Source: a virus. Taken from it: a stretch of DNA of 24,694 nt. Below, one piece after another: positions 5,714 to 22,924 of the stretch; the stretch's first letter is position 1, and each line of letters begins with the position of its first letter. The stretch is from positions 1 through 24,694 of the IMG/VR virus record IMGVR_UViG_3300020175_001000; one strand, 5' to 3'. The position numbers were made by a program, and so were the translations under genes. Under the pieces are notes generated by a model that saw only the letters and a list, made by a program, of their open reading frames with translations, searched no databases and was not told where the DNA came from.

Positions 5714-7732
5714 GTGGGACATAAGTTTAAATTATCAGAGAATTTTATAAATAAATTCAAAAGAAAAAAACCACCATTTGGTTTTAATGGATTGGGAGAG
5801 TTGGTTTACATGAGAACCTATTCCAGAATTAAAGAAGATGGAAAGAATGAAAGATGGTGGGAAACTGTCCAAAGGGTTGTAGAGGGAACATATTCAATGC
5901 AAATGAATCACATTGAATCACATCAGTTAGGTTGGAATCCTTGGCAAGCACAGAAATCTGCACAAGATATGTATGAAAGAATCTTCAACATGAAGTTCTT
6001 ACCACCAGGTCGTGGTTTATGGGCAATGGGAACAGCAATCACAGAAGAAAAAGGATTATATGCTGCACTAAACAATTGTGCGTTCGTATCAACAAAAACA
6101 ATTAAAGAAGATTATTCCAAACCATTTTGTTTCCTAATGGATGCAAGTATGTTAGGTGTTGGAGTAGGTTTTGATACTAAAGGAGCGGGGGAAATAGTTG
6201 TTAAAGGTGTTGATATCAAACGAGATGAACAAACTTTTCAAATACCAGATACTCGTGAGGGTTGGGTAGAATCTTTAAGATTATTATTAGAGAGTTACTT
6301 TCATGGACAAGCACCAGTTCATTTTGATTATAGTTTAATCAGACCTGCAGGAGTTCCAATCAAAGGTTTTGGTGGAGTTAGTTCAGGCCCAGACCCATTA
6401 GAAGAAGTTCACGAAAGTGTTAGACAAGTATTAGAGGGTAACACAGGTAATCCAATCACAATCACCACAATCGTAGATATTATGAATTTAATCGGTAAAT
6501 GTGTTGTGGCAGGTAATGTAAGAAGAACTGCAGAGATTGTATTCGGAGACCCACACAATGAAGAGTATTTAGATTTAAAAAATTACAAAGTAAATCCACA
6601 CAGAGAACAATTTGGTTGGACATCTAATAATAGTATATTCGCTGAGTTAGGTATGGATTATACAGAAGCCTCAAAGAGAATAGCAGATAATGGAGAACCA
6701 GGTTTTGCGTGGTTAGAAAATATGAGAAAGTATTCTCGTATGAAGAATGGTGGAGATAACAAAGACCATAGAGTTATGGGTGGTAATCCTTGTTTGGAAC
6801 AATCACTTGAATCCTATGAGTTATGTTGTTTAGTGGAAACATTTCCAGCAAATCACGATTCATTAGAGGATTATCAAAGAACATTAAAGTATGCTTATTT
6901 GTATGCAAAGACTGTTACATTAGGTAGAACACACTGGTCAGATACCAATAGAGTTATGTTGAGAAACAGACGAATTGGTTGTTCAGTAAGTGGTATTGCT
7001 CAATTCATTACCAATCGTGGATTAAATGAGTTGAAAAATTGGTTAGAAGAGGGATATGATACTATACAAGAATGGGATGATATCTATTCAGATTGGTTTG
7101 CTATTCCAAAATCAATTAAAACCACAAGTGTAAAACCAAGTGGGACAGTTTCTTTGTTAGCAGGTTCAACACCTGGATTACATTATCCTGAATCAAGATT
7201 CTATACAAGAAGAATTAGAATATCAATTAATTCTGATTTAGTTGAACCATTGAAAAAAGCAGGTTATAAAATCGAACCAGCATTTGGTTCAGAGGATTCA
7301 ACATTAGTAGTTGAAGTTCCTGTCGATGTAGGAGAGGGTATAAGGACAGTCGGAGAACTATCCATATGGGAACAATTCAGTTTGGCAGCATTTATGCAAA
7401 GACATTGGGCTGATAACCAAGTGAGTTGTACTGTCACCTTTAATCCAGAAACAGAAGCTGATATGATACCACAAGTATTAAACTATTATCAATATCACCT
7501 AAAGGGTATTTCTCTTTTACCAAGACACGATTACGGAGCATATCGACAAATGCCTTATGAAGCGATTGATGAAAAAACATATAATAAAGATGTTAAGAAG
7601 TTAGGTAAACTAAACTTCGGAGTAATCAAAGCTGAAGAAGCAAATGTAGAGAAGTTTTGTGATGGTGATTTTTGTGATGTAGAAATCACACCTACGACAG
7701 GTGATAATGACGACCAAGATTATGCGAACTAA
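5714..7732 (+). CDS. rtpR: adenosylcobalamin-dependent (class II) ribonucleotide reductase, monomeric RTPR type
   Basis: A 672-aa enzyme that reduces ribonucleotides to deoxyribonucleotides using a cobalamin-generated thiyl radical. RTYSR near the N-terminus and FLPPGRGLWAMGT are typical of the RTPR family. NPCLEQSLESYELCC places C360 (thiyl radical), E362 and C371 with the same spacing as C408/E410/C419 of the Lactobacillus leichmannii enzyme; C122 in ALNNCAFVST matches its partner C119. The C-terminal CDGDFC (C649/C654) matches the swinging Cys-x4-Cys pair. It is somewhat shorter than the bacterial enzyme (739 aa). The GTG start has AAGGAG 6 nt upstream. No separate small subunit is needed, and no cobalamin riboswitch is visible. 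It is followed, without an obvious terminator, by the TonB-dependent receptor. Confidence 0.92.
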   Translation: MGHKFKLSENFINKFKRKKPPFGFNGLGELVYMRTYSRIKEDGKNERWWETVQRVVEGTYSMQMNHIESHQLGWNPWQAQKSAQDMYERIFNMKFLPPGRGLWAMGTAITEEKGLYAALNNCAFVSTKTIKEDYSKPFCFLMDASMLGVGVGFDTKGAGEIVVKGVDIKRDEQTFQIPDTREGWVESLRLLLESYFHGQAPVHFDYSLIRPAGVPIKGFGGVSSGPDPLEEVHESVRQVLEGNTGNPITITTIVDIMNLIGKCVVAGNVRRTAEIVFGDPHNEEYLDLKNYKVNPHREQFGWTSNNSIFAELGMDYTEASKRIADNGEPGFAWLENMRKYSRMKNGGDNKDHRVMGGNPCLEQSLESYELCCLVETFPANHDSLEDYQRTLKYAYLYAKTVTLGRTHWSDTNRVMLRNRRIGCSVSGIAQFITNRGLNELKNWLEEGYDTIQEWDDIYSDWFAIPKSIKTTSVKPSGTVSLLAGSTPGLHYPESRFYTRRIRISINSDLVEPLKKAGYKIEPAFGSEDSTLVVEVPVDVGEGIRTVGELSIWEQFSLAAFMQRHWADNQVSCTVTFNPETEADMIPQVLNYYQYHLKGISLLPRHDYGAYRQMPYEAIDEKTYNKDVKKLGKLNFGVIKAEEANVEKFCDGDFCDVEITPTTGDNDDQDYAN

Positions 7733-7748
7733 GAAAAGTTTCACATAC

Positions 7749-7783
7749 TACTGGCAGGCGACACACCAGTATAAAAATGTGTC
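7749..7783 (+). promoter_or_regulatory. H-type pseudoknot in the leader of the TonB-dependent receptor
   Basis: Stem 1 is TACTGG (7749-7754) with CCAGTA (7766-7771). Stem 2 is GACACA (7760-7765, in the loop of stem 1) with TGTGTC (7778-7783). Loop 1 is 5 nt (CAGGC), there is no base between the stems, and loop 3 is the A-rich TAAAAA. Both stems are perfect 6-bp helices, so this is a textbook coaxial pseudoknot. It starts 17 nt after the reductase stop and ends 18 nt before AAGGAG (7802-7807) of the receptor gene. The plan resembles small pseudoknot riboswitches (preQ1-I type) and the T-even gene 32 operator. I cannot assign a ligand. Confidence 0.6.
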
Positions 7784-7813
7784 ATTCACAAGTAAACAAA
7801 CAAGGAGATGATT

Positions 7814-10570
7814 ATGAATAATTATCGTAATCTTATCGCATCAGTATTTATGATGGCAGGATTGTATGCACAATCTATTGTCGGAGTTGTTACTGATGTT
7901 GACTCACAACCACTTGAGGGAGCTAATATTGTAGTTGTAGGAACAGATGTAGGTGGAGTATCAGATAATTCTGGTGCTTTCAAAATTGATGTTCTATCAG
8001 GTACATACGATGTAACTGCTTCTTTCATAGGTTACTCTTCAATAACGAAATCAGTAGTTGTTGAGGATATAGTTTCAAGTGTTAATTTCATATTAGAAAT
8101 TGATTTCTTGGGATTATCAGATGTAGAGGTGTTAGCATCTCGTGCATCTGAAACAACACCTGTTGCTTACACTAATGTTAGTAAAGCTGAAATGGATGTT
8201 CGTCTTGGTTCACAAGACATTCCAATGATTCTTAACACAACACCAAGTGTATATGCAACCCAACAAGGTGGTGGTGCGGGTGATGCTCGTATCAACATTC
8301 GAGGTTTTAATCAACGAAATGTTGCAGTAATGATAAATGGTGTACCACAGAATGACATGGAGAATGGTTGGGTGTACTGGTCTAATTGGGACGGAGTTGG
8401 TGATGCTACATCATCTATTCAGGTTCAAAGAGGACTAAGTGCAGTTAATCTTGCGACTCCATCCATTGGTGGAACAATGAACATTATTACAGACCCAACC
8501 GCGATGGAAAAAGGTGGAAAGTTCAAACAAGAAGCTGGAGATGGGGGTTTTCTAAAGACTACCGCTACCTACCATACTGGTCTCATCGGAGATAAGTTAG
8601 CTTTAAGTGGAACAATTGTTCGTAAAACTGGTGATGGAATTATCGATGGGACATGGACAGATGCATGGGCCTATTATTTCGGTGGTTCTTACGCCGTAAG
8701 TGAAGACCAAAGAGTTGAGTTGTACGCAATAGGTGCACCACAACGACACGGTCAGAACTTATACAAACAAAACATAGCAACATACTCACAAGAGCTTGCA
8801 GGTGATGTTGATGGATATGATACTGATGCATTTGCAGATGGTAACAAATTCGAAACTGAAGCAGGTAGGTTCTACAATCAAAATTGGGCACCAGTAGATG
8901 AATCATACACTGGTCAACAATATTGGTATATGTATGGAGCAAAAACAACCGATAGATTCAATAAAGGTTTTATAAATGAGAGAGAAAACTTCTTTCATAA
9001 ACCATTAGTGAATCTAAATCACTTCTTAACAATAAATGACAAGACTCGTTTGAGTTCAGTTCTTTATTGGAGTGGTGGTTCTGGTGGTGGTACTGGTACA
9101 TATGGTAGTGTTTCAAGAACACCTGCAGTTGAGGGAGAAAGATGGTATGCATCTTCGCCTTGGATGTGGGATTGGAACGCAGAGATAGAACAAAACAGAA
9201 CAAACTTCGATGCTGATTATTCTGAAACAGATGCTCGTTCAACAGGTATTCTTCGTAACTCAATTAATCGTCAAGATACATATGGTTTGATTTCAAAATT
9301 AAACTACATTGTTAATGATGAACTTGAATTACAAGTTGGATTAGACTGGAGAACAGCAGGTATCGAACACGCTCGTGAGGTTCGTGATTTATTAGGTGGA
9401 GACTACTATGTAGATTTCGCTGATGATAATGCACCTGATGGGAAAGTTGTTGGTTTAGGTGATATCATTGCCTATCATAATGAAACCACAGTCGATTGGA
9501 TTGGTGGATTTTTACAAGGTAATTATAATACTGAAAAATTAAACCTATATGGTATGGGTGGATTATCAAGTATTACATACTCTTATGAAGACCACTTTGC
9601 TGTTAATGTAGATGAAGATGGGAACACCATTGATAATCTTGTTAAAGCAGATGCAATCACGACCTATCAGTTAAAAGGTGGTGGATTATATAACATTAAC
9701 GATAATCTTGGAGTATTCCTAAACGCAGGTTTAGTTGAAAAAGCACCAATATTAGACAATGTTATCTACTACGATGGTACAGTCTCAACAGACCCAGCAA
9801 ATGAAAAATTCATTGCTAGTGAGTTTGGAGTGAACTATGGAACTGAAAGGTTCGGAGTTAAAGTTAGTGCTTATAACACCGATTGGAAAGATAGAAACCT
9901 TACTAAATCTGTTTCAACAGGTCAAGGTTCATCAGGTGATACTGATATTATCTTCTTAACAGGTGTTGACCAAAACCATAAAGGTATTGAGATTGAAACT
10001 AAAGTAAAACCACACGATATGGTTGAACTTGATTTCATCGCATCTTATGGTAGTTGGAAGTTCGTTGGTGATGCCGATGGTACTTACCAAGAACAAGAGT
10101 TTAATGATGATAACCAAGTAATTGGTGTTCAGACTACAGATTACTCTTATGCACTTGATGGATTATGGGTTGGTGATATGCCACAAACATCTTATATTTT
10201 AGGTGTTACTCTTAAACCAATTAAAGGTTTGAGATTACAGGCATTGTACAAAACATATGACAGAAACTTTGCTGATTGGTCACCTGATTCTCGTGAGATT
10301 GAGGGTGATGCCGACAGAACACAAGTTTGGGAAGCCCCAGGTTATTCTAAACTTGATTTACATGCATCATACAATCTTCCAAGTGTTGCTGGTTTAGATT
10401 TGACTCTTACAGGTCATATCTTCAACGCACTTGATGATGTATTTGTACAAGATGCAGTTGACAATAGTCAATACAATGGGTATGGTGATAAACTTCACTT
10501 ACCACATAACGCAGAGGTATTCTTAGGAACACCACGATATGCAAACATTGGATTGACTGTTAATTTCTAA
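7814..10570 (+). CDS. TonB-dependent outer-membrane receptor/transporter
   Basis: A complete 918-aa receptor. ATG 7814 is preferred because AAGGAG (7802-7807) is 6 nt away, whereas the ATG at 7808 abuts it. In order: a signal peptide (MNNYRNLIASVFMMAGLYAQ), a carboxypeptidase-regulatory-like beta domain (about 20-95: GVVTDVDSQPLEGANIVVVG ... FIGYSS), a TonB-box-like ETTPVAYTNV, then a plug domain with RINIRGFNQRNVAVMINGVP and IQVQRGLSAVNLATPSIGG. A long barrel rich in aromatic and alternating strands ends LTVNF, with the terminal Phe that is the outer-membrane protein signature. Such receptors move cobalamin, siderophores or glycans across the outer membrane using TonB energy. This architecture is typical of Bacteroidota/FCB bacteria, and the substrate is not readable. 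By eye it uses more CGT and GC-richer codons than its neighbours, consistent with acquisition from a host. It appears to share a transcript with the B12-dependent reductase. Confidence 0.93.
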   Translation: MNNYRNLIASVFMMAGLYAQSIVGVVTDVDSQPLEGANIVVVGTDVGGVSDNSGAFKIDVLSGTYDVTASFIGYSSITKSVVVEDIVSSVNFILEIDFLGLSDVEVLASRASETTPVAYTNVSKAEMDVRLGSQDIPMILNTTPSVYATQQGGGAGDARINIRGFNQRNVAVMINGVPQNDMENGWVYWSNWDGVGDATSSIQVQRGLSAVNLATPSIGGTMNIITDPTAMEKGGKFKQEAGDGGFLKTTATYHTGLIGDKLALSGTIVRKTGDGIIDGTWTDAWAYYFGGSYAVSEDQRVELYAIGAPQRHGQNLYKQNIATYSQELAGDVDGYDTDAFADGNKFETEAGRFYNQNWAPVDESYTGQQYWYMYGAKTTDRFNKGFINERENFFHKPLVNLNHFLTINDKTRLSSVLYWSGGSGGGTGTYGSVSRTPAVEGERWYASSPWMWDWNAEIEQNRTNFDADYSETDARSTGILRNSINRQDTYGLISKLNYIVNDELELQVGLDWRTAGIEHAREVRDLLGGDYYVDFADDNAPDGKVVGLGDIIAYHNETTVDWIGGFLQGNYNTEKLNLYGMGGLSSITYSYEDHFAVNVDEDGNTIDNLVKADAITTYQLKGGGLYNINDNLGVFLNAGLVEKAPILDNVIYYDGTVSTDPANEKFIASEFGVNYGTERFGVKVSAYNTDWKDRNLTKSVSTGQGSSGDTDIIFLTGVDQNHKGIEIETKVKPHDMVELDFIASYGSWKFVGDADGTYQEQEFNDDNQVIGVQTTDYSYALDGLWVGDMPQTSYILGVTLKPIKGLRLQALYKTYDRNFADWSPDSREIEGDADRTQVWEAPGYSKLDLHASYNLPSVAGLDLTLTGHIFNALDDVFVQDAVDNSQYNGYGDKLHLPHNAEVFLGTPRYANIGLTVNF

Positions 10571-10580
10571 TAATGTAATT

Positions 10581-10602
10581 TGGGGGGATTTATTTCCCCC
10601 CA
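10581..10602 (+). terminator. intrinsic terminator after the TonB-dependent receptor
   Basis: TGGGGGGA (10581-10588) pairs with TCCCCCCA (10595-10602) around a 6-nt T/A loop, 10 nt after the receptor stop, followed by ATTTATATT. This is a very GC-rich stem in an AT-rich genome. It closes the reductase-receptor unit. Confidence 0.75.
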
Positions 10603-10630: not shown

Positions 10631-10660
10631 TTGACACATATATGCTTTTTTCACTATATT
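10631..10660 (+). promoter_or_regulatory. sigma70-like promoter before the polymerase unit
   Basis: A perfect -35 TTGACA (10631-10636), an 18-nt spacer and TATATT (10655-10660), one mismatch from TATAAT. It lies just after the receptor terminator and just before the small acidic gene and gene 43. This is the best promoter in the window and uses the generic bacterial consensus, not the Bacteroidota -33/-7 type. Confidence 0.6.
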
Positions 10661-10686
10661 CACATATGAAAAACAAAGGATATATT

Positions 10687-11022
10687 ATGAACTTAAATGA
10701 GACAATTTACAATAGTAATCATATAATGGGTGTAGAAGACTTAAGTGTTAACACTCGTGAGATTCCATTCAATCAGTTAATGACAGAATTTTGTGATGAT
10801 TATGATTCAAGTGATAATTGTGAAGAATTTGCGGTTGTATGGAAAGAGTATCATGGAGAACTACAAATAGAACAGATTTATAACCACGAGACAGGTGAAA
10901 TATATTGGGAAGATAACTTCGATGATGTAGATACACCAAGTGGTAGAGATTGGAACCCTAACGATGAAATACTTTATTGCAGTATTTTAATGTGGGGTGA
11001 GTTGGAACAAACTATAGGATAA
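10687..11022 (+). CDS. small acidic protein of unknown function
   Basis: A 111-aa protein. I choose ATG 10687 because AAAGGA lies 6 nt upstream; an in-frame ATG at 10642 falls inside the promoter. The protein is strongly acidic, with runs such as EFCDDYDSSDNCEEF and WEDNFDDVDTPSGRDWNPND, and two Cys pairs are not spaced as a zinc site. I recognise no family. It sits 3 nt before gene 43 under the TTGACA promoter, so it is probably expressed with the polymerase. The position hints at a replication-related or DNA-mimic role, but nothing in the sequence proves it. Confidence 0.65.
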   Translation: MNLNETIYNSNHIMGVEDLSVNTREIPFNQLMTEFCDDYDSSDNCEEFAVVWKEYHGELQIEQIYNHETGEIYWEDNFDDVDTPSGRDWNPNDEILYCSILMWGELEQTIG

Positions 11023-11025
11023 TTA

Positions 11026-13530
11026 GTGTATAAGAACATATATTACGAGAAAAGACGAAACAAAATTCATGTATGGGATGACAAACGCGGACATCTCATT
11101 GTACCTTATAAGAAATATGCATATGTAAAGAATGCAGCAGGTTACCACCACACCTTAGATGGTGATAAAGTAAAGAAAGTATACAAGTGGGATGATGATG
11201 ACCCCAATTTATTCGAGAGTGATGTTCCTATCACCACAAGATTTTTAGTAGACCAATATACAGATTCAGATGATGCAAGTGAGGGATGTAAAACTTTTTT
11301 CTTTGATATCGAGGTAGAAGTTGTAGATGGTTTTCCAGATGTAACAAAAGCAAACGAGAAGATAACTTCTATTGCGTTCTATGATGAGATGATAGAAAAG
11401 TATTATTGTTATACTTTAGATGAACAGAAAACTATGCAGAATTATGAAAAGGATGATGAGATAGTTGAGTTATTTACAAGTGAACACGACCTATTAACAA
11501 AGTTTTATCAGAAGTATGCAGAGATATCACCTGATATATTAAGTGGTTGGAATTCAGAGTTCTTTGATATCCCTTATCTATATAATCGTAGTGTAAATGT
11601 ATTAGGTAGAGAAGTTGCAAATATGTTATCACCTATTCGTGATGTATATTATAATGAATACAAAAAGAAACATAATATTGCTGGTATCAGTTGTTTAGAT
11701 TATCTCACATTATATCGTAAGTTCTCGCCAATCCAACAATCAAGTTATAGATTAGATTATATCGGTGAAGTAGAAGTTGGTATGAAAAAGATTGAGTATC
11801 AAGGAACACTTAATGATTTGTATGAAAAAGATTTAGATAAGTTTATTAAATATAACATTCGAGATGTACGAATCCTAATCGAGTTAGATAAAAAGTTAGA
11901 TTTTATTGGTATTGCAAGAGGTATAGCACATCTTGGTCATGTACCTTATGAAGATGTTATGATGAGTTCAAGATATCTTGAGGGTGCTATCTTGGTTTAC
12001 CTAAAGAAGATGGGTATTGTTGCACCAAACAAACCAAAGAATGTTTATAAGAGAGGTGAGGATGATAAGTTTGAAGGTGCATATGTACAGAAACCACAAG
12101 CAGGTAGACACGATTGGGTATATGATTTAGATATCACAAGTATGTATCCAAGTGTTATTCGTTCTTTAAATATATCACCAGAAACAAAGGTTGGTAAAGT
12201 AGAGGGTTGGGATTCAGTTGAGTTCGTAAAGGGTGATACTATAAAGAATTACACTTTAAAGAATGGACATGGTAAAACAATTGACACAGTCGATAATAAA
12301 CAATTAAAATCCTATTTAGAAGAGACAGGGTTAAGTATATCATCTAATGGTATTATGTATCGTACAGATAAACAAGGATTGATTCCTGCACTTCTAACCA
12401 AATGGTTCGAAGAAAGAGTTGAGATGAGGAAACTTGTTAATAAATTCCACGAACAAGGTGATAAAAAGAAATCTCAATATTTTGATAGGAGACAATACCT
12501 ACAGAAAATTTTGTTAAACTCATTGTATGGTGTATTGGGATTACCAGTATTTAGATTTTATGATTTGGATAACGCAGAGGCAACCACATCTACAGGTCAA
12601 GCCTTAATTAAGTTCAGTAAGAAGATTACAAACCACTTTTATAACAAAGAGTTGGGTAATACAGAAGACTATGTGATTTATATAGATACTGATAGTATTT
12701 TTGCCTCTGCGGTTCCATTGATAGAGAATAGGTTTCCAAATCAAAAGTTAAGTGAAACCATGATGACTCAGAGAATTATGGAAGTTTGTGGTGAGGTACA
12801 AGATTTCTTAAATGAGAGTTATAATTACTTTGCAAAACAATTCTTAAATATAGATAACCATGTGTTTGATATTAAACAAGAGGTGGTTGCAAAAACTGCA
12901 TTATTCATTACGAAGAAACGATATGGATTAAGAATTATAAATGATGCAGGTAGAAAGTGTGATAAGGTTCATGTTAAGGGTTTAGATACAGTCAGAAGTA
13001 ACTTTGCAATTGCTATGAAATCATTGTTATCAGATGTATTGGAAGATATCTTGGCAAATGTTCCTAAAGAACAAATCGATGAACGAATTAGTAAGTTCAA
13101 AAGAAATATGCATATGTTACATTATGATGTAATGGCAAATCCAATCGGTGTAAAGGGTATTGGTAAGTATGAAGTAACGGATGAGGATTCATCTTTCAGT
13201 AAATTTAAAAAGGGTGCACCTGTCCATGTGAAATCCGCAATCAATTACAATTCATTATTACAACATTGGTTCGAGGGTAGAAAATATGAGAAGATTGGTA
13301 ATGGTAGTAAGATTAAATGGGTGTATTTAAAAGAGAATACATTTGGATTTGACACCATAGGATATAAAGGTTGGGAAGACCCACCACAAATATTAGATTT
13401 TATTAAAAATCACATTGACCACAATAGAATGTTTGAACAAGCGATGAGTAAGAAACTCGGTATGTTTTATAAAGCTATGAAGTGGGAAGATGTAGTAGAC
13501 AAAGAACAAAGTATTGAAAGATTTTTTTGA
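11026..13530 (+). CDS. 43: family B DNA polymerase gp43
   Basis: An 834-aa replicative polymerase with proofreading. Exonuclease motifs are Exo I FFFDIEVE (D94, E96), Exo II region LSGWNSEFFDIPYLYNR and Exo III KYNIRDVRILIEL. Polymerase motifs are A DLDITSMYPSVI (catalytic D369), B KILLNSLYGVLG and C YIDTDSIF (D554, D556). The C-terminus ends KEQSIERFF, resembling the clamp-binding tail of T4 gp43. It is shorter than T4 gp43 (898 aa) but complete. The GTG start follows the previous stop by 3 nt. It acts with the clamp and loader encoded just downstream. Confidence 0.95.
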   Translation: MYKNIYYEKRRNKIHVWDDKRGHLIVPYKKYAYVKNAAGYHHTLDGDKVKKVYKWDDDDPNLFESDVPITTRFLVDQYTDSDDASEGCKTFFFDIEVEVVDGFPDVTKANEKITSIAFYDEMIEKYYCYTLDEQKTMQNYEKDDEIVELFTSEHDLLTKFYQKYAEISPDILSGWNSEFFDIPYLYNRSVNVLGREVANMLSPIRDVYYNEYKKKHNIAGISCLDYLTLYRKFSPIQQSSYRLDYIGEVEVGMKKIEYQGTLNDLYEKDLDKFIKYNIRDVRILIELDKKLDFIGIARGIAHLGHVPYEDVMMSSRYLEGAILVYLKKMGIVAPNKPKNVYKRGEDDKFEGAYVQKPQAGRHDWVYDLDITSMYPSVIRSLNISPETKVGKVEGWDSVEFVKGDTIKNYTLKNGHGKTIDTVDNKQLKSYLEETGLSISSNGIMYRTDKQGLIPALLTKWFEERVEMRKLVNKFHEQGDKKKSQYFDRRQYLQKILLNSLYGVLGLPVFRFYDLDNAEATTSTGQALIKFSKKITNHFYNKELGNTEDYVIYIDTDSIFASAVPLIENRFPNQKLSETMMTQRIMEVCGEVQDFLNESYNYFAKQFLNIDNHVFDIKQEVVAKTALFITKKRYGLRIINDAGRKCDKVHVKGLDTVRSNFAIAMKSLLSDVLEDILANVPKEQIDERISKFKRNMHMLHYDVMANPIGVKGIGKYEVTDEDSSFSKFKKGAPVHVKSAINYNSLLQHWFEGRKYEKIGNGSKIKWVYLKENTFGFDTIGYKGWEDPPQILDFIKNHIDHNRMFEQAMSKKLGMFYKAMKWEDVVDKEQSIERFF

Positions 13531-18306: not shown

Positions 18307-20571
18307 ATGTCAACACAGATAACAAGAACAACAGAATTTATTAATCATATTACAGGTAGTGCAGGTAATTGGCCTTCATTATCAAATGCTGGAATTCTTG
18401 GTGGTATAGACTACCTTATAGAAAGTGGTTCCAACGAAGTAAAATTTATAGAAATGAATACCAATATTGGAATTGTTGGTAGTGCAGCAATACAGACAGG
18501 TAGTTACTTCGATGTAATATCAGATTATGTAAATGATAAAGGATACACGACTACTTATGTTTATGGAGTTAATCACAATGGTAAAAAAAATCCATCAACA
18601 CTTCAACAACCATTAATTAGTGCTAGTTTTGCACGACATGATATAACGACTAATTTTGAATATGGTGATAGTCTAACAAGAACATACTTTTTACAAAGAG
18701 GAGACGAAGACCACTTAGATAAGTTTCATTTATGGATGCAAACGCCTTGGTATAGTGATGATAATTTAAAAAGTATAGTTAGTGGTTCATTTGATAAAAA
18801 TACATTTAGAACATTTTTGGGTAATTCACCATTTAGTTCTTCTTTGATACCATCATTTGATAAGGATAATTATACACCAAATAATAATTATCCAGATTTT
18901 GTAGTTAAAACTGCAACTCAAGATTCGAGTGTTCAAACTAATAAAATTGGTTTTTACACATACAATTCAACAAGTTCAAGTTATCAAAATGGAGTTGATA
19001 GTGGTTCTTTGATAGAAGAATATATTGTTCATAGTGGAAGTTACAGAGATGGACAATCACATTTGGGTGTGGGTAAAATAGAGTTTATGATGACACCAGA
19101 AAAGGTTATTGTGTTTGGTGATAGAGATTCTGGTAGAAATGTTAAACTAAAACCTACAGCAACAGATAGTTGGGATTATATAGGGCAAAAAGCAAAAACA
19201 TCTGCGAGTGGTAGTTTAATTAAAATGTATGATGGTTCAACAAAACAGGTTCAAGATGTTGAAGTTGGGGATGTTGTTTTAAGTTATCAACCATATGGAA
19301 TGCCAGATGAATCAAAAGATTATTTATCTTACACCACAACAGATTTAAGTGGTTCTACAACACAAGGTTCTATTGTTGTAGATGTAATGAACACCGAAAA
19401 TTATGGATATTATTTAATCAATGGTAGTATTAAAGCACCTTATAATTTACAACAGGCTAGTAGTGATATTAGATATTTTGTAAAACAAGGAGATACTTGG
19501 GAATGGATAACAACAGATGCTATTAGAACTGGAGATTATCTTTTAGACACAAGTGGTAATGAAACAGAAGTTACATCAAAGACAGAACATGATGGTGATA
19601 CACTTTGGTATGCACTTGATGTAGAGGATATTGATACTTACTTCCAATCAAATATATTGGTTCACAATATTCCACCAAAGTGTTTTGTAGCAGGAACACC
19701 AATCACTATGGGTGATGGAACTACAAAAGTTATTGAAAGAATTGAAATCGGTGATGAAGTTATGAATTATAATTTCAAAGATGAAGAAGTTCAGACAGGT
19801 AAAGTTACCACGATTGATACACCAACACACGCAGATATTATAGAGATTAGTTTTGGTGATAAGAAGACAAAGAATACATTTGACCATCCATATTGGGTAG
19901 TTGGAAAAGGTTGGAGTTCATATAAACCAGAGTGGACTAAAAAACGATATGATATAGAATCAAATCAATTAGAAATTGGTGATAAGTGTTTAGAACTTCG
20001 TGATGGTAAATTAGTGGAAAGAGAAATTACTAATATTGTTGAAGATATAAATCCAGTCCAAACTTATTCATTAGAAATAACAACAAACCATAACTATTTT
20101 GCAAATGATGTATTAGTTCATAACAAATTTTGTTTAATGGAAGACCAAGTTATTAATATGGGAGATGGTGTTTATAAAAGAATTGATGAGATAGAATTAG
20201 GTGAAAGTATTTTACAATACGATGAAGAAACTGAAGAGTTTAAAGAGGGTAAAGTAAATATGATAAGAAAGAAACTACATGATAATTGTTATGGAATCAA
20301 AGTTGAAAGTGGACAAACAATTAAAGCAACTGATAACCATCCATTTTTATTGAGAGATAAAGGTTGGTCTACAATTGCTGAGAACAATCCAATGTTTTTA
20401 CAAGATGGTGGTGGTATTATAAAAGTTGGTGATTATGTTAGAGATATAGATGGATGGGTAGAAATTGTAGAAATCAATAAAATTGAGGGAGAATATATAA
20501 CATATAACTTGTTAGAACAAGATTATGGAACTATTATTGCTCATGATATTGTAACTCACAATTCACCTTAA
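18307..20571 (+). CDS. protein with three tandem C-terminal Hint (hedgehog/intein) modules and an ATP-grasp-like N-terminal part
   Basis: A 754-aa protein. Residues 1-297 include ATP-grasp-like elements (FDKNTFRTFLGNSPF, then DFVVKTATQDSS, then LIEEYIVHSG), and GIDYLIESGSNEVKFIEMNTN near the start resembles an ATP-grasp metal-binding strand in an unexpected place. This call is tentative. From about 298 to 752 there are three Hint self-processing modules. Hint2 (459-606) has catalytic C459, TFDH (TxxH) and terminal VHN. Hint3 (609-752) has C609, TDNH and THN. Hint1 (about 298-454) ends VHN but has Thr/Ser in place of the first Cys and no TxxH His, so it is probably degenerate. Linkers are only 2-4 residues (IPPK, KF), and the protein ends SP right after Hint3. 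Only Hint3 is followed by a splicing-competent Ser, so cleavage is more likely than full splicing. The ATG has AGGA upstream. Confidence 0.8.
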   Translation: MSTQITRTTEFINHITGSAGNWPSLSNAGILGGIDYLIESGSNEVKFIEMNTNIGIVGSAAIQTGSYFDVISDYVNDKGYTTTYVYGVNHNGKKNPSTLQQPLISASFARHDITTNFEYGDSLTRTYFLQRGDEDHLDKFHLWMQTPWYSDDNLKSIVSGSFDKNTFRTFLGNSPFSSSLIPSFDKDNYTPNNNYPDFVVKTATQDSSVQTNKIGFYTYNSTSSSYQNGVDSGSLIEEYIVHSGSYRDGQSHLGVGKIEFMMTPEKVIVFGDRDSGRNVKLKPTATDSWDYIGQKAKTSASGSLIKMYDGSTKQVQDVEVGDVVLSYQPYGMPDESKDYLSYTTTDLSGSTTQGSIVVDVMNTENYGYYLINGSIKAPYNLQQASSDIRYFVKQGDTWEWITTDAIRTGDYLLDTSGNETEVTSKTEHDGDTLWYALDVEDIDTYFQSNILVHNIPPKCFVAGTPITMGDGTTKVIERIEIGDEVMNYNFKDEEVQTGKVTTIDTPTHADIIEISFGDKKTKNTFDHPYWVVGKGWSSYKPEWTKKRYDIESNQLEIGDKCLELRDGKLVEREITNIVEDINPVQTYSLEITTNHNYFANDVLVHNKFCLMEDQVINMGDGVYKRIDEIELGESILQYDEETEEFKEGKVNMIRKKLHDNCYGIKVESGQTIKATDNHPFLLRDKGWSTIAENNPMFLQDGGGIIKVGDYVRDIDGWVEIVEINKIEGEYITYNLLEQDYGTIIAHDIVTHNSP
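19198..20562 (+). repeat. three tandem Hint module repeats
   Basis: These are protein-level repeats within the preceding gene: about 19198-19668, 19681-20124 and 20131-20562. Each opens with a [GY]DG-x(4-8)-[EI][LIV]G[DE] turn and ends ILVHN, VLVHN or IVTHN. The three copies have diverged strongly at the DNA level, so this is not a recent duplication. Confidence 0.75.
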
Positions 20572-20593: not shown

Positions 20594-21220
20594 ATGGGAA
20601 AATATAAACATAATAATAATTTCAAGTATTCAATTCAAATACCAAATTTCTTATCACATGAAAAGTGTGATGAAATAATTAAACAAGTTACAGATACAGA
20701 AGAACAAGTTGTAGGTTGTGTTGGTGATGAAAAGGGTAGTGTAATCATACCAGAAATCAGACAAACAAAAGAATGGTATTTAACAGACCAACCATTAAAT
20801 GATATGAGACCTGATAAAACTGCCAATGATTGGGGTTGGATACAGAAGAAAATGTACACGATTATTCAAATGGTAAATAAAGATATTTTCAAATTTGATA
20901 TCAGAGGTTATCATGATGAGTTAAAACTAATAGAATACCAAGATGGTGGTTTCTATGGTTGGCATACAGATTTTAATGCAGGTTATTGTTCAGTAAGAAA
21001 GTTAGTAGGAATAATTCAATTAACAGACCCGAGTGAATATGAGGGTGGAGATGTTCAATTCGGTATCCAAGATAAAAATACAAAAGAATGGTACACTATG
21101 GAGAAGAAAAAAGGCTCACTAACAATCTTTCCAACATTCTTATCACACAATGTAACACCAGTCACTAAAGGTAAACGACATGTAATTCAAGAATTATTTG
21201 TAGGAGACCATTTTAGGTGA
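20594..21220 (+). CDS. 2OG-Fe(II) oxygenase, copy 1 (prolyl 4-hydroxylase-like)
   Basis: A 208-aa double-stranded beta-helix dioxygenase using iron and 2-oxoglutarate. Iron ligands are H124 and D126 (YGWHTDF) and H185 (FLSHNVTP), and R195 in TKGKRH is the 2-oxoglutarate-binding residue. The N-terminal NFLSHEKCDEIIK motif recurs in all four copies of this array. EYEGGDVQFGI is closest to copy 4. Members hydroxylate prolines, lysines, asparagines or small molecules; the substrate here is unknown. The start is the first ATG after the Hint gene, but its ribosome-binding site is poor. Its stop overlaps copy 2 (GTGA). Confidence 0.85.
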   Translation: MGKYKHNNNFKYSIQIPNFLSHEKCDEIIKQVTDTEEQVVGCVGDEKGSVIIPEIRQTKEWYLTDQPLNDMRPDKTANDWGWIQKKMYTIIQMVNKDIFKFDIRGYHDELKLIEYQDGGFYGWHTDFNAGYCSVRKLVGIIQLTDPSEYEGGDVQFGIQDKNTKEWYTMEKKKGSLTIFPTFLSHNVTPVTKGKRHVIQELFVGDHFR

Positions 21221-21750
21221 TTGCAAATAAAAACTTTGAGTGGTTTTTAGTTAGAGATAACTTTTTATCATCTCAAGAGTGTGATGATGAAATTAAGTTT
21301 ATAGATAGTAATGTAAAAAAAGATAATTTTGTTTCGGGTGATATGCATGATTGTAAAAATGTTGATATAGAAAATGAAAAATTATTAGATAGACTATGGA
21401 AAGTAGTAAAACTATCTAACACATTGGTATATAAATTTGATATATCAGGTATTCAAGGTTCTTGTGGGAAGTTATATTCAGTAGATACATTTACAGCAGA
21501 TGATAATTATCATACAGACTTTGCAGCAGGAGATGGAAGTGTTGTTAATAGTTGTACTAAATTATCTTGTTTAATATTTTTAAATGATGATTTTGAGGAT
21601 GGTGGATTACAAATTTGGAACGATAAAATAGATGCTAAAAAAGGTAGGTTAGTTATATTTCCATCATTTGCAGCACATAAAGTTTTACAATTTAGTGAAA
21701 AGGATAGATACACATTAATAACTTTCATAGGGGGCAATACTTTTAAATGA
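21217..21750 (+). CDS. 2OG-Fe(II) oxygenase, copy 2
   Basis: A 177-aa protein, the shortest of the array. Iron ligands are H99 and D101 (NYHTDFA) and H154 (FAAHKV), and R164 (EKDRYTLITF) is the 2-oxoglutarate arginine. The family N-terminal motif is DNFLSSQECDDEIKF. All catalytic residues are present, so it should be active despite its size. The GTG start overlaps the copy 1 stop, and its own stop overlaps copy 3 (ATGA). Confidence 0.82.
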   Translation: MIANKNFEWFLVRDNFLSSQECDDEIKFIDSNVKKDNFVSGDMHDCKNVDIENEKLLDRLWKVVKLSNTLVYKFDISGIQGSCGKLYSVDTFTADDNYHTDFAAGDGSVVNSCTKLSCLIFLNDDFEDGGLQIWNDKIDAKKGRLVIFPSFAAHKVLQFSEKDRYTLITFIGGNTFK

Positions 21751-22358
21751 AATATAAAAATATAAACATGGAAGAGTTGAAGATAAACCAAGATTTTAGA
21801 TGGTTTATTACAAGACCTAATTTCTTTTCAAAGGATGAATGTGAATATATGATAAAACATATAGATAAGACCTCAACAAGAAAGAAAGGACATTATACTG
21901 AAAACCGAGAAGATAGTTCATCATTGACTTGGGATACAACAGAGGATAGTAATGTTTGTATGTTAAACATTAGTAGAACAGAAGAGCAAAAGTATCTTGA
22001 TAAGTTTTGGAGTGCAATACAAATTGCAAACATAACAACATTCAAATATAATTTAAGTGGAATATTTGAAAATAGAGTACAGGCACACAGATATGATGTA
22101 GGTGATTGGTATAATCCACATGCGGATTTTCACTCAATACAAAAGTTTAGTTCAGTAAAATTAACTTGTATTGTATTTTTAAACGACCAACAAGATTATG
22201 AGGGTGGTGAGTTCAGAATGTTTGACGGAACAATCATAGAACCAGAAGTGGGGAAATTAATTATACATCCCGCATTTGCAGGACACGAGGTTAAACCAGT
22301 TACAAAGGGTGAGAGATATTCTTGTGTTTGTTGGGCAGTAGGAGATACTTTCGTATGA
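21747..22358 (+). CDS. 2OG-Fe(II) oxygenase, copy 3
   Basis: A 203-aa protein with iron ligands H125 and D127 (YNPHADF) and H180 (FAGHEVKPV), and R190 (TKGERYS). The N-terminal motif is PNFFSKDECEYMIK. It has extra sequence between residues 40 and 80 compared with copy 2. The first metal motif is HAD rather than the HTD of the other three, still a valid HxD. The start overlaps the copy 2 stop; an in-frame ATG at 21768 is an alternative. The stop overlaps copy 4 (ATGA). Confidence 0.83.
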   Translation: MKYKNINMEELKINQDFRWFITRPNFFSKDECEYMIKHIDKTSTRKKGHYTENREDSSSLTWDTTEDSNVCMLNISRTEEQKYLDKFWSAIQIANITTFKYNLSGIFENRVQAHRYDVGDWYNPHADFHSIQKFSSVKLTCIVFLNDQQDYEGGEFRMFDGTIIEPEVGKLIIHPAFAGHEVKPVTKGERYSCVCWAVGDTFV

Positions 22359-22924
22359 TACAAAATGATAATTTTAAATTTGTAGTACATAAAGAGAATT
22401 TTTTATCTAATTCACAATGTGATAACTTGATAAAATATTTGGATGAAGTAAATCCAAATGATTCAGAACTTGCAGGAAAGTATGATGAAAATATTTTAAA
22501 TAAAAAGGTTCGTAACAATAAAGAAGTTATATTCAAAGATGATAAATTAAGAAATAAACTAAAAATGATTTTTGAATTATCAAACTTATCAATTTGGAAT
22601 TTTGATATACAGAAAATGGAAGATGTAAAACTTTTAAAGTATGATGTTGGTGGTAAATATGAATGGCATACTGATTGTGGTTCCAAGAAAACTTCTAAAA
22701 GAAAACTAACTGCCATTGTTCAGTTATCAGATGAAACAACATACGAGGGTGGAGATTTAGAATTTGGAATCACCGAAGATTCAGGTGGGAAAAATTATAC
22801 TGCACCAAGAGAGAGAGGGAGTATCACAATATTTCCTGCGTTCTTATCACATAGAGTAACACCAATCACTAAAGGAACTCGTTACTCATTAATAACTTGG
22901 ATGTTGGGAAATGCATTTAAATAA
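22355..22924 (+). CDS. 2OG-Fe(II) oxygenase, copy 4
   Basis: A 189-aa protein starting at the ATG that overlaps the copy 3 stop (ATGA); a longer in-frame opening from 22322 would overlap copy 3 by 37 nt and is less likely. Iron ligands are H105 and D107 (YEWHTDCG) and H166 (FLSHRVTP), and R176 (TKGTRYS). Its YEGGDLEFGI and FLSHRVTPITKG stretches are nearer to copy 1 than to its direct neighbours. The sulfotransferase-like gene begins 14 nt before its stop. Confidence 0.84.
   Translation: MIQNDNFKFVVHKENFLSNSQCDNLIKYLDEVNPNDSELAGKYDENILNKKVRNNKEVIFKDDKLRNKLKMIFELSNLSIWNFDIQKMEDVKLLKYDVGGKYEWHTDCGSKKTSKRKLTAIVQLSDETTYEGGDLEFGITEDSGGKNYTAPRERGSITIFPAFLSHRVTPITKGTRYSLITWMLGNAFK

Follow-up and report, generated by a model that had tools for sequence, protein, structure and literature searches.

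Phages enter cells through TonB-dependent receptors (TBDRs). Genes for such receptors have also been reported in phages, and the receptor described here is not the first (PMC9723777, PMC10504331). A putative SusC-type TBDR was found in the marine megaphage Mar_Mega_1 and in LR745206, where it was suggested to raise carbohydrate uptake (PMC9723777), while the pelagiphage Skadi carries an annotated TBDR among structural genes, which was read as pointing to an adsorption receptor (PMC10504331). The locus studied here lies in a virus record from IMG/VR, which was analysed over its full length of 24,694 bases and is called the window hereafter. It resembles Mar_Mega_1 and LR745206 in carrying a TBDR in a marine phage, although LR745206 matches the window receptor at only 26% identity over 24% of the query, and the available part of that account describes no lineage-wide synteny or leader RNA. 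The Skadi gene stands among structural genes in the available part of its description, whereas the window receptor stands among replication genes, and Skadi did not appear by name among the 13 INPHARED matches to our receptor. Two unannotated human faecal records filed as phage in INPHARED, MT837399 and MT837128 (7.0 and 14.2 kb), contain relatives about 30% identical, and PHROG 5687, a family listed with no function, holds a relative filed as phage, the likeness across these three being either full-length or limited to the plug region. BFVD gave one clear match, a TBDR that bears the SusC name and comes from an uncultured marine phage. On receptors of Marinimicrobia phages nothing on point was found in the published literature, preprints lying outside the search. 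What is new here is a covarying leader pseudoknot before a receptor that is standing in a lineage, together with a TonB-domain protein in some of the viruses. From the sequences and the modelled fold, we consider it rather probable that this T4-like lineage carries a working importer of host origin under its own leader control.

The receptor gene and its surroundings

The gene at 7814..10570 (plus strand, stop included) is predicted, from its open frame, Pfam, an AlphaFold2 model and fold matches, to encode a complete TBDR with a regulatory-like domain, a plug and a modelled 22-strand barrel, in agreement with the initial annotation, which had described a complete phage-encoded receptor with an N-terminal carboxypeptidase-regulatory-like domain, plug and barrel. 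The open frame spans 7808-10570 and has an in-frame ATG at 7808 besides that at 7814. An A-rich stretch (7784..7807, plus strand) ends in the Shine-Dalgarno motif AAGGAG (7802-7807), which directly adjoins the first ATG and leaves a gap of six bases to the second; as this spacing fits and several receptor relatives lack the upstream ATG, the likely start is 7814. The Plug domain (PF07715) scored 54.9 bits against a cut-off of 23.9 (E 1.4e-14), and the N-terminal domain matched CarbopepD_reg_2/CarboxypepD_reg in Pfam; the Pfam barrel model PF00593 gave no match to the receptor, and the SusC/RagA family TIGR04056 (NCBIfam) stayed below its cut-off (52 bits vs 368.25).

The AlphaFold2 model, built on 90 sequences, was a plugged barrel (mean pLDDT 77.4, pTM 0.73) with 22 strands, counted by hand on the DSSP assignment, the C-terminal strand closing the barrel. 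Plug residues 143-189 and 191-194 had pLDDT below 50, the plug apex being poorly modelled. Solved TBDRs matched the model over residues 103-920 with Z up to 30.4, among them FyuA (Z 30.4, rmsd 3.4, 580 aligned), BtuB (Z 29.4, rmsd 3.1, 516 aligned) and FhuA (Z 27.7, rmsd 3.5, 599 aligned). A candidate TonB-box segment (residues 105-120) was conserved at the expected place, with E107, A110, S111 and R112 invariant, and the N-terminus was hydrophobic, with a helix predicted at residues 5-20 at low pLDDT.

The receptor is set among T4-type replication genes, as the initial annotation had stated, and flanking genes were identified on both sides. Upstream lie gp32, UvsX, a 5'-3' exonuclease, DnaB and a class II (B12-dependent) ribonucleotide reductase (RNR; 5714..7732, plus strand, Pfam), which is the usual upstream neighbour; downstream lie the usual neighbour on that side, a family B DNA polymerase (PolB; 11026..13530, plus strand, Pfam), and the clamp, methylase and clamp loader genes. 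Directly 3' of the receptor there is a terminator-like hairpin (10581..10602, plus strand), with hairpins at the equal place in relatives whose stems are altered (by eye), followed by a 126-aa open reading frame (10642..11022, plus strand) with relatives in contigs L001, L016, L036 and L139. As judged from gp32, UvsX, DnaB, the family B polymerase, the sliding clamp and the clamp loader, the window virus is T4-like.

Other features were observed in the window. A manA RNA (RF01745) was matched at 626-824, upstream of gp32 (58.8 bits vs a gathering score of 55.2). The uvsX leader contains, at 1792-1894, a long inverted-repeat element (AGTGTGT ... ACACACT), which is also found in L003, L009 and L015 and in varied form in L018, and positions 1780-1920 gave no Rfam match at E 1; in L053 a tRNA-like sequence lies in the uvsX leader, about 100 bases 5' of the gene (by eye). 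A run of four adjacent 2OG-Fe(II) oxygenase genes, all from a single family, occupies 20594-22924. The protein encoded at 18307-20571 (754 aa) combines several domains of Hint/intein-like type (PT-HINT, Hint, Intein_splicing, AXH) and weakly resembles a virion structural PHROG.

Distribution among viruses and kinship with Marinimicrobia

A scan of viral contigs with the receptor protein yielded 331 relatives among 332 pattern stretches, and the best 80 of them were retained; the order RNR-receptor-polymerase was present in most of these 80. Recurrence of the gene at the same locus in other phage contigs, which the initial annotation had named as a check, was thus found in dozens of divergent contigs. 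A polymerase scan, blind to the receptor, recovered it in 68 of 80 loci; the 12 loci without it all start within 3.2 kb of the polymerase, and it was present in every polymerase-found locus with more than 3.5 kb upstream (n = 45/45). In L208, which belongs to these 12, the receptor's place is taken by other genes, and a scan centred on this contig delimited a sister virus group in which the receptor was absent from 79 further loci, 40 of them with more than 4 kb upstream. The polymerase of this group is 43-45% identical to that of the window (eight loci compared). Since the receptor is universal in polymerase loci with enough upstream sequence and absent in the sister group, it marks one virus lineage. 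Its identity to the window copy follows core-gene identity (Pearson 0.69-0.81), and Plug matches numbered one in each of 17 virus records vs 18-22 in three host genomes.

A scan of genome contigs detected 57 receptor loci, mostly labelled Ca. Neomarinimicrobiota or Marinimicrobia. L081 (filed as Flavobacteriales) and L124 (filed as Euryarchaeota) have the viral neighbours and were therefore treated as virus contigs binned with other organisms. A receptor match at 1e-100 was found in 85 of 149 Marinimicrobia genomes, as a single match in 76 of the 85, and genes like dnaG, yqeY and cvpA lay near the homologue in 25, 21 and 17 of 55 host loci, respectively. The chromosomal TBDRs from Marinimicrobia and FCB-labelled loci are about 54-69% identical to the viral ones over their full length and have the plug and TonB-box region in common with them; the viral copies differ in forming one clade, in a relaxed N-terminal domain and in their pseudoknot leader.

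A tree built from 104 sequences placed the 65 viral rows among Marinimicrobia rows, with one host row, L082, inside them. L082 is a host contig, with an aminotransferase and a second receptor start, and its place in the virus clade was set aside: it appeared in the free quick tree, and a tree constrained to unite the 65 viral rows reached a higher likelihood (p-AU 0.944). The second start, in tandem at L082:3876-4265 of this small Marinimicrobia genome, shares its first 14 residues with the first receptor. By these comparisons the viral receptors are best treated as a single clade that falls within the Marinimicrobia receptors, so that the kinship with the FCB group proposed initially was upheld by the phylogeny and narrowed to Marinimicrobia/Fidelibacterota. 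Gene kinship suggests that the viruses probably infect uncultured Marinimicrobia.

The leader pseudoknot

Between RNR and receptor sits a conserved leader element (7750..7783, plus strand), recognised by covariation and leader scans, in which stem 1 (7750-7754 with 7766-7770) and stem 2 (7760-7765 with 7778-7783) cross, as in an H-type pseudoknot, leaving loops at 7755-7759 and, A-rich, at 7771-7777. Among 53 distinct leaders, whose rows were cut around a short core, which makes their likeness partly a matter of construction, 96.4% of the cells (counting sequences, not events) were paired, and two-sided changes were seen in 5 of 11 pairs. Two-sided cells numbered 39 vs 8.8 in shuffles, and the covariation score, which none of 500 shuffles reached, was 0.218 against 0.094, with at most 0.068 for slid versions. 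At least as many two-sided pairs arose in 87 of the 500 shuffles, and at least as many pair types in 320, and the outermost stem-1 pair was broken in 18 of the 53 leaders.

A relaxed scan detected the pseudoknot in 81 of 83 viral leaders, near-copies included, the two others being L060, cut by the contig end, and L031, a variant under the threshold. A stricter scan found 78 in 82 viral loci plus 25 matches elsewhere in 1.29 Mb; in host loci it gave 34 matches in 0.84 Mb, a background rate. The covariance model produced one strong match in each of 18 virus records, weak matches only (E 0.03-0.9) elsewhere in these records and in three sister viruses, and one marginal match (E 0.008) in 61 Marinimicrobia genomes; across 36 loci the window was its sole match. 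The pseudoknot was not seen in host receptor leaders. In Rfam 15 no family reached its gathering score on the pseudoknot in the window and 16 leader regions, the best overlapping match being DUF805 RNA (RF03081; 13.7 bits vs 51.1, E 4.3), a match that did not recur among the 16 leaders at E 5. The element thus appears private to the viral receptor lineage and absent from the listed RNA families. The T4 late-promoter motif TATAAATA was also sought in the leader and rejected, with exact copies in 0 of 63 and copies with at most one mismatch in 10 of 63, vs 11.8 expected from shuffles.

An exact pattern scan of viral contigs returned 108 stretches, which added 100 new loci, all of which were examined. 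The receptor follows the element in 96, and the other four end at most 96 bases past it, after the ATG that opens the receptor (by eye). In 90 of the 100 there is an RNR no more than 600 bases upstream. Contexts were taken from seven of the ten loci without a nearby RNR (L405, L413 and L414 being left out): a glutamine synthetase stands in between in L337, L360 and L388 (by eye; the relative in L078 was Pfam-confirmed), and a membrane protein does so in L334, L347, L377 and L382. Because leader and receptor stay together when the upstream gene differs, the leader belongs to the receptor and not to RNR. As separate observations, virus-encoded glutamine synthetase adjoins the receptor, before or after it, also in L010, L012 and L078, with a relative 3' of the receptor in eight loci (near-copies included), and L077 and L079 carry receptor and leader in another setting, with an RNR match in neither record; in L079 an Hsp20 gene and then a 280-aa membrane protein lie upstream of the receptor.

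As regards the leader only, it is possible, if tentative, that the pseudoknot is a protein operator that times receptor synthesis by gp32-like translational repression and senses no metabolite. In T4 gene 32, according to the available part of the source, the ribosome-binding site lies in a less structured stretch that comes after a pseudoknot of about 28 nt (PMC535899), and the receptor leader is built alike, with the pseudoknot 19-39 nt before the assigned start, in a virus that encodes gp32. The T4 operator, however, acts on gene 32 itself, whereas the viral element precedes the receptor; moreover, the covariance model gave no second strong copy in the window and 17 other records, so that gene 32, where present in them, lacks the element, and the gp32 leaders of these viruses look different (by eye). 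A more speculative reading, which we regard as doubtful, takes the pseudoknot for a new, virus-borne class of metabolite-sensing riboswitch that would tune the importer to its own nutrient, a virus-run feedback feeding with, in some members, its own TonB-domain protein.

Selection and function of the receptor

A median omega of 0.124 was obtained for close viral pairs (97 pairs, not independent). In 25 independent viral pairs omega was 0.367 for the N-terminal domain, 0.106 for the TonB-box region, 0.074 for the plug, 0.133 for strands and 0.144 for loops, the corresponding values in six host pairs being 0.147, 0.028, 0.063, 0.122 and 0.187. All regions except the loops were somewhat tighter in hosts than in viruses, a comparison with only six host pairs, and the N-terminal domain is relaxed in the viruses. 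Purifying selection, for which the initial annotation had proposed a test, was detected in the plug, TonB-box region and loops. The regions that a transporter would need, the plug and the TonB-box region, appear as the best conserved, although any surface role dependent on an intact fold would bring similar selection.

The loop-to-strand substitution ratio was 0.94 over all 1,378 viral pairs and 0.91-1.10 in three viral subclades; four host clades, each with 6-36 pairs, gave 1.14-1.65. Strand and loop limits were set by hand from the DSSP assignment of the model, and the ratios are uncorrected for the tree. At matched strand identity of 0.70-0.75, loop identity was 0.742 in viruses vs 0.617 in hosts. 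This pattern is read as an outer face of the receptor preserved for its ligand, rather than varied to evade recognition. Of the two roles proposed initially, nutrient uptake is the better supported, with the plug and TonB-box region under purifying selection, while a block of superinfection by receptor replacement has lost ground, the plug, TonB-box region and extracellular loops being constrained and the loops not diversifying.

Under the importer reading, a T4-like lineage would have acquired a TonB-dependent importer from its Marinimicrobia host, most simply once, and would have retained it permanently. In the infected cell the receptor would be expressed, exported to the outer membrane and inserted there, host TonB-ExbBD would power it, and it would import a nutrient that has become scarce there, with the phage-specific pseudoknot upstream of the ribosome-binding site setting its output.

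Superinfection exclusion, in which the viral receptor would replace or dilute the host receptor of rival phages, perhaps with a free TonB domain occupying TonB boxes, seems unlikely. TBDRs serve phages as receptors, and the phage protein Cor inactivates one of them, FhuA, according to the part of the source available (PMC11436027). Loop 4 is the loop most different from hosts, with identities of 0.367 between virus and host, 0.737 among viruses and 0.442 among hosts; nevertheless, the nearest host homologues have the viral loop 4 type (by eye), the viral loops are about as constrained as the strands where host loops are looser, and exclusion would not require an intact plug and TonB-box region.

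The TonB-domain proteins bear on both readings. PF03544 (TonB C-terminal) scored above its cut-off in four of the 18 virus records, and among 16 further receptor-bearing records, chosen independently of PF03544, two (L377 and L382) also passed. This makes six of 34 receptor-bearing records not selected for it, vs none of five sister viruses; the gene is missing from most records, which are fragments, a point against exclusion, and the window, itself a fragment, holds no TonB-domain protein. Sequence matches added mini-proteins in L338, L371, L422 and L444. Such proteins, mostly about 109-123 aa and with a hydrophobic N-terminus, were noted in L022:1818-2183, L036:2205-2531, L338, L371, L422, L441, L442 and L444. 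Eight that were aligned have a hydrophobic, signal-peptide-like start and no long linker of the kind present in the TonB of the host genome G018, which matches them at 27-37%; both the anchor and the long linker of host TonB are missing from the viral proteins. As a scan with one mini-protein gave few relatives (two among 28 pattern stretches), their spread was judged from the family searches. ExbB/MotA had no match in the 18 virus records, and G018 encodes both TonB and ExbB. Competition for TonB boxes by free TonB domains is conceivable, and since such a domain could block import as well as aid it, exclusion gains slightly.

That the importer supplies cobalamin to the adjacent B12-dependent RNR of the virus is, in our judgement, quite improbable. 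RNR is the nearest matched upstream gene in most loci and lies close upstream in the 90 leader-pattern loci given above, the viral enzyme is class II, and the best fold matches include BtuB structures, but FyuA, Fiu and FhuA match comparably, the receptor is also found without an adjacent RNR, and the RNR of a receptor-less sister virus contains a class II-type domain, under the family cut-off. Of 149 Marinimicrobia genomes, 119 gave a cobalamin riboswitch, and most of 30 riboswitches inspected precede a receptor-like frame (by eye), the exceptions including an ABC-transporter-like frame and an anaerobic RNR frame (RNR Pfam-confirmed). Both riboswitch-associated receptor frames checked in Pfam were TBDRs, one of them 23% identical to the viral receptor over 249 columns. 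The riboswitch lies mostly before a different TBDR family and, by our reading, never within about 129 kb of a receptor homologue on one contig (many contigs are short). The host homologue did not show the BtuB-type trait of standing under a cobalamin riboswitch, which is supporting evidence only, and B12 as substrate was disfavoured by this survey. Two other routes to the substrate were set aside: the host neighbours yqeY, cvpA and dnaG are housekeeping genes with no partner gene among them, and by fold the siderophore, cobalamin and ferrichrome receptors score alike.

Finally, an assembly chimera or host contamination, which the host homologues of the receptor and its slightly higher GC (0.378 vs 0.32-0.36 in six neighbouring viral genes) might have suggested, is practically untenable, being contradicted at the assembly level by both receptor-gene junctions, letter-identical in L001 and L016 (which differ from the window at 5 and 2 of 7,817 bases, respectively), and also by the equal gene order in the divergent contigs and the separate clade of the viral copies. 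The near-copy L139 has no exact match to the junction strings, yet it spans both at 98.6% over 5,704 columns.

The importer reading suggests that infected cells are kept feeding by a virus-borne importer, so that nutrient import in infected cells may become a virus trait, and it hints at how Marinimicrobia are affected by their uncultured viruses. Receptor and leader together provide a marker for tracing these viruses, and the leader is a small and clean RNA; the substrate could be revealed through the ligand or protein that it binds.
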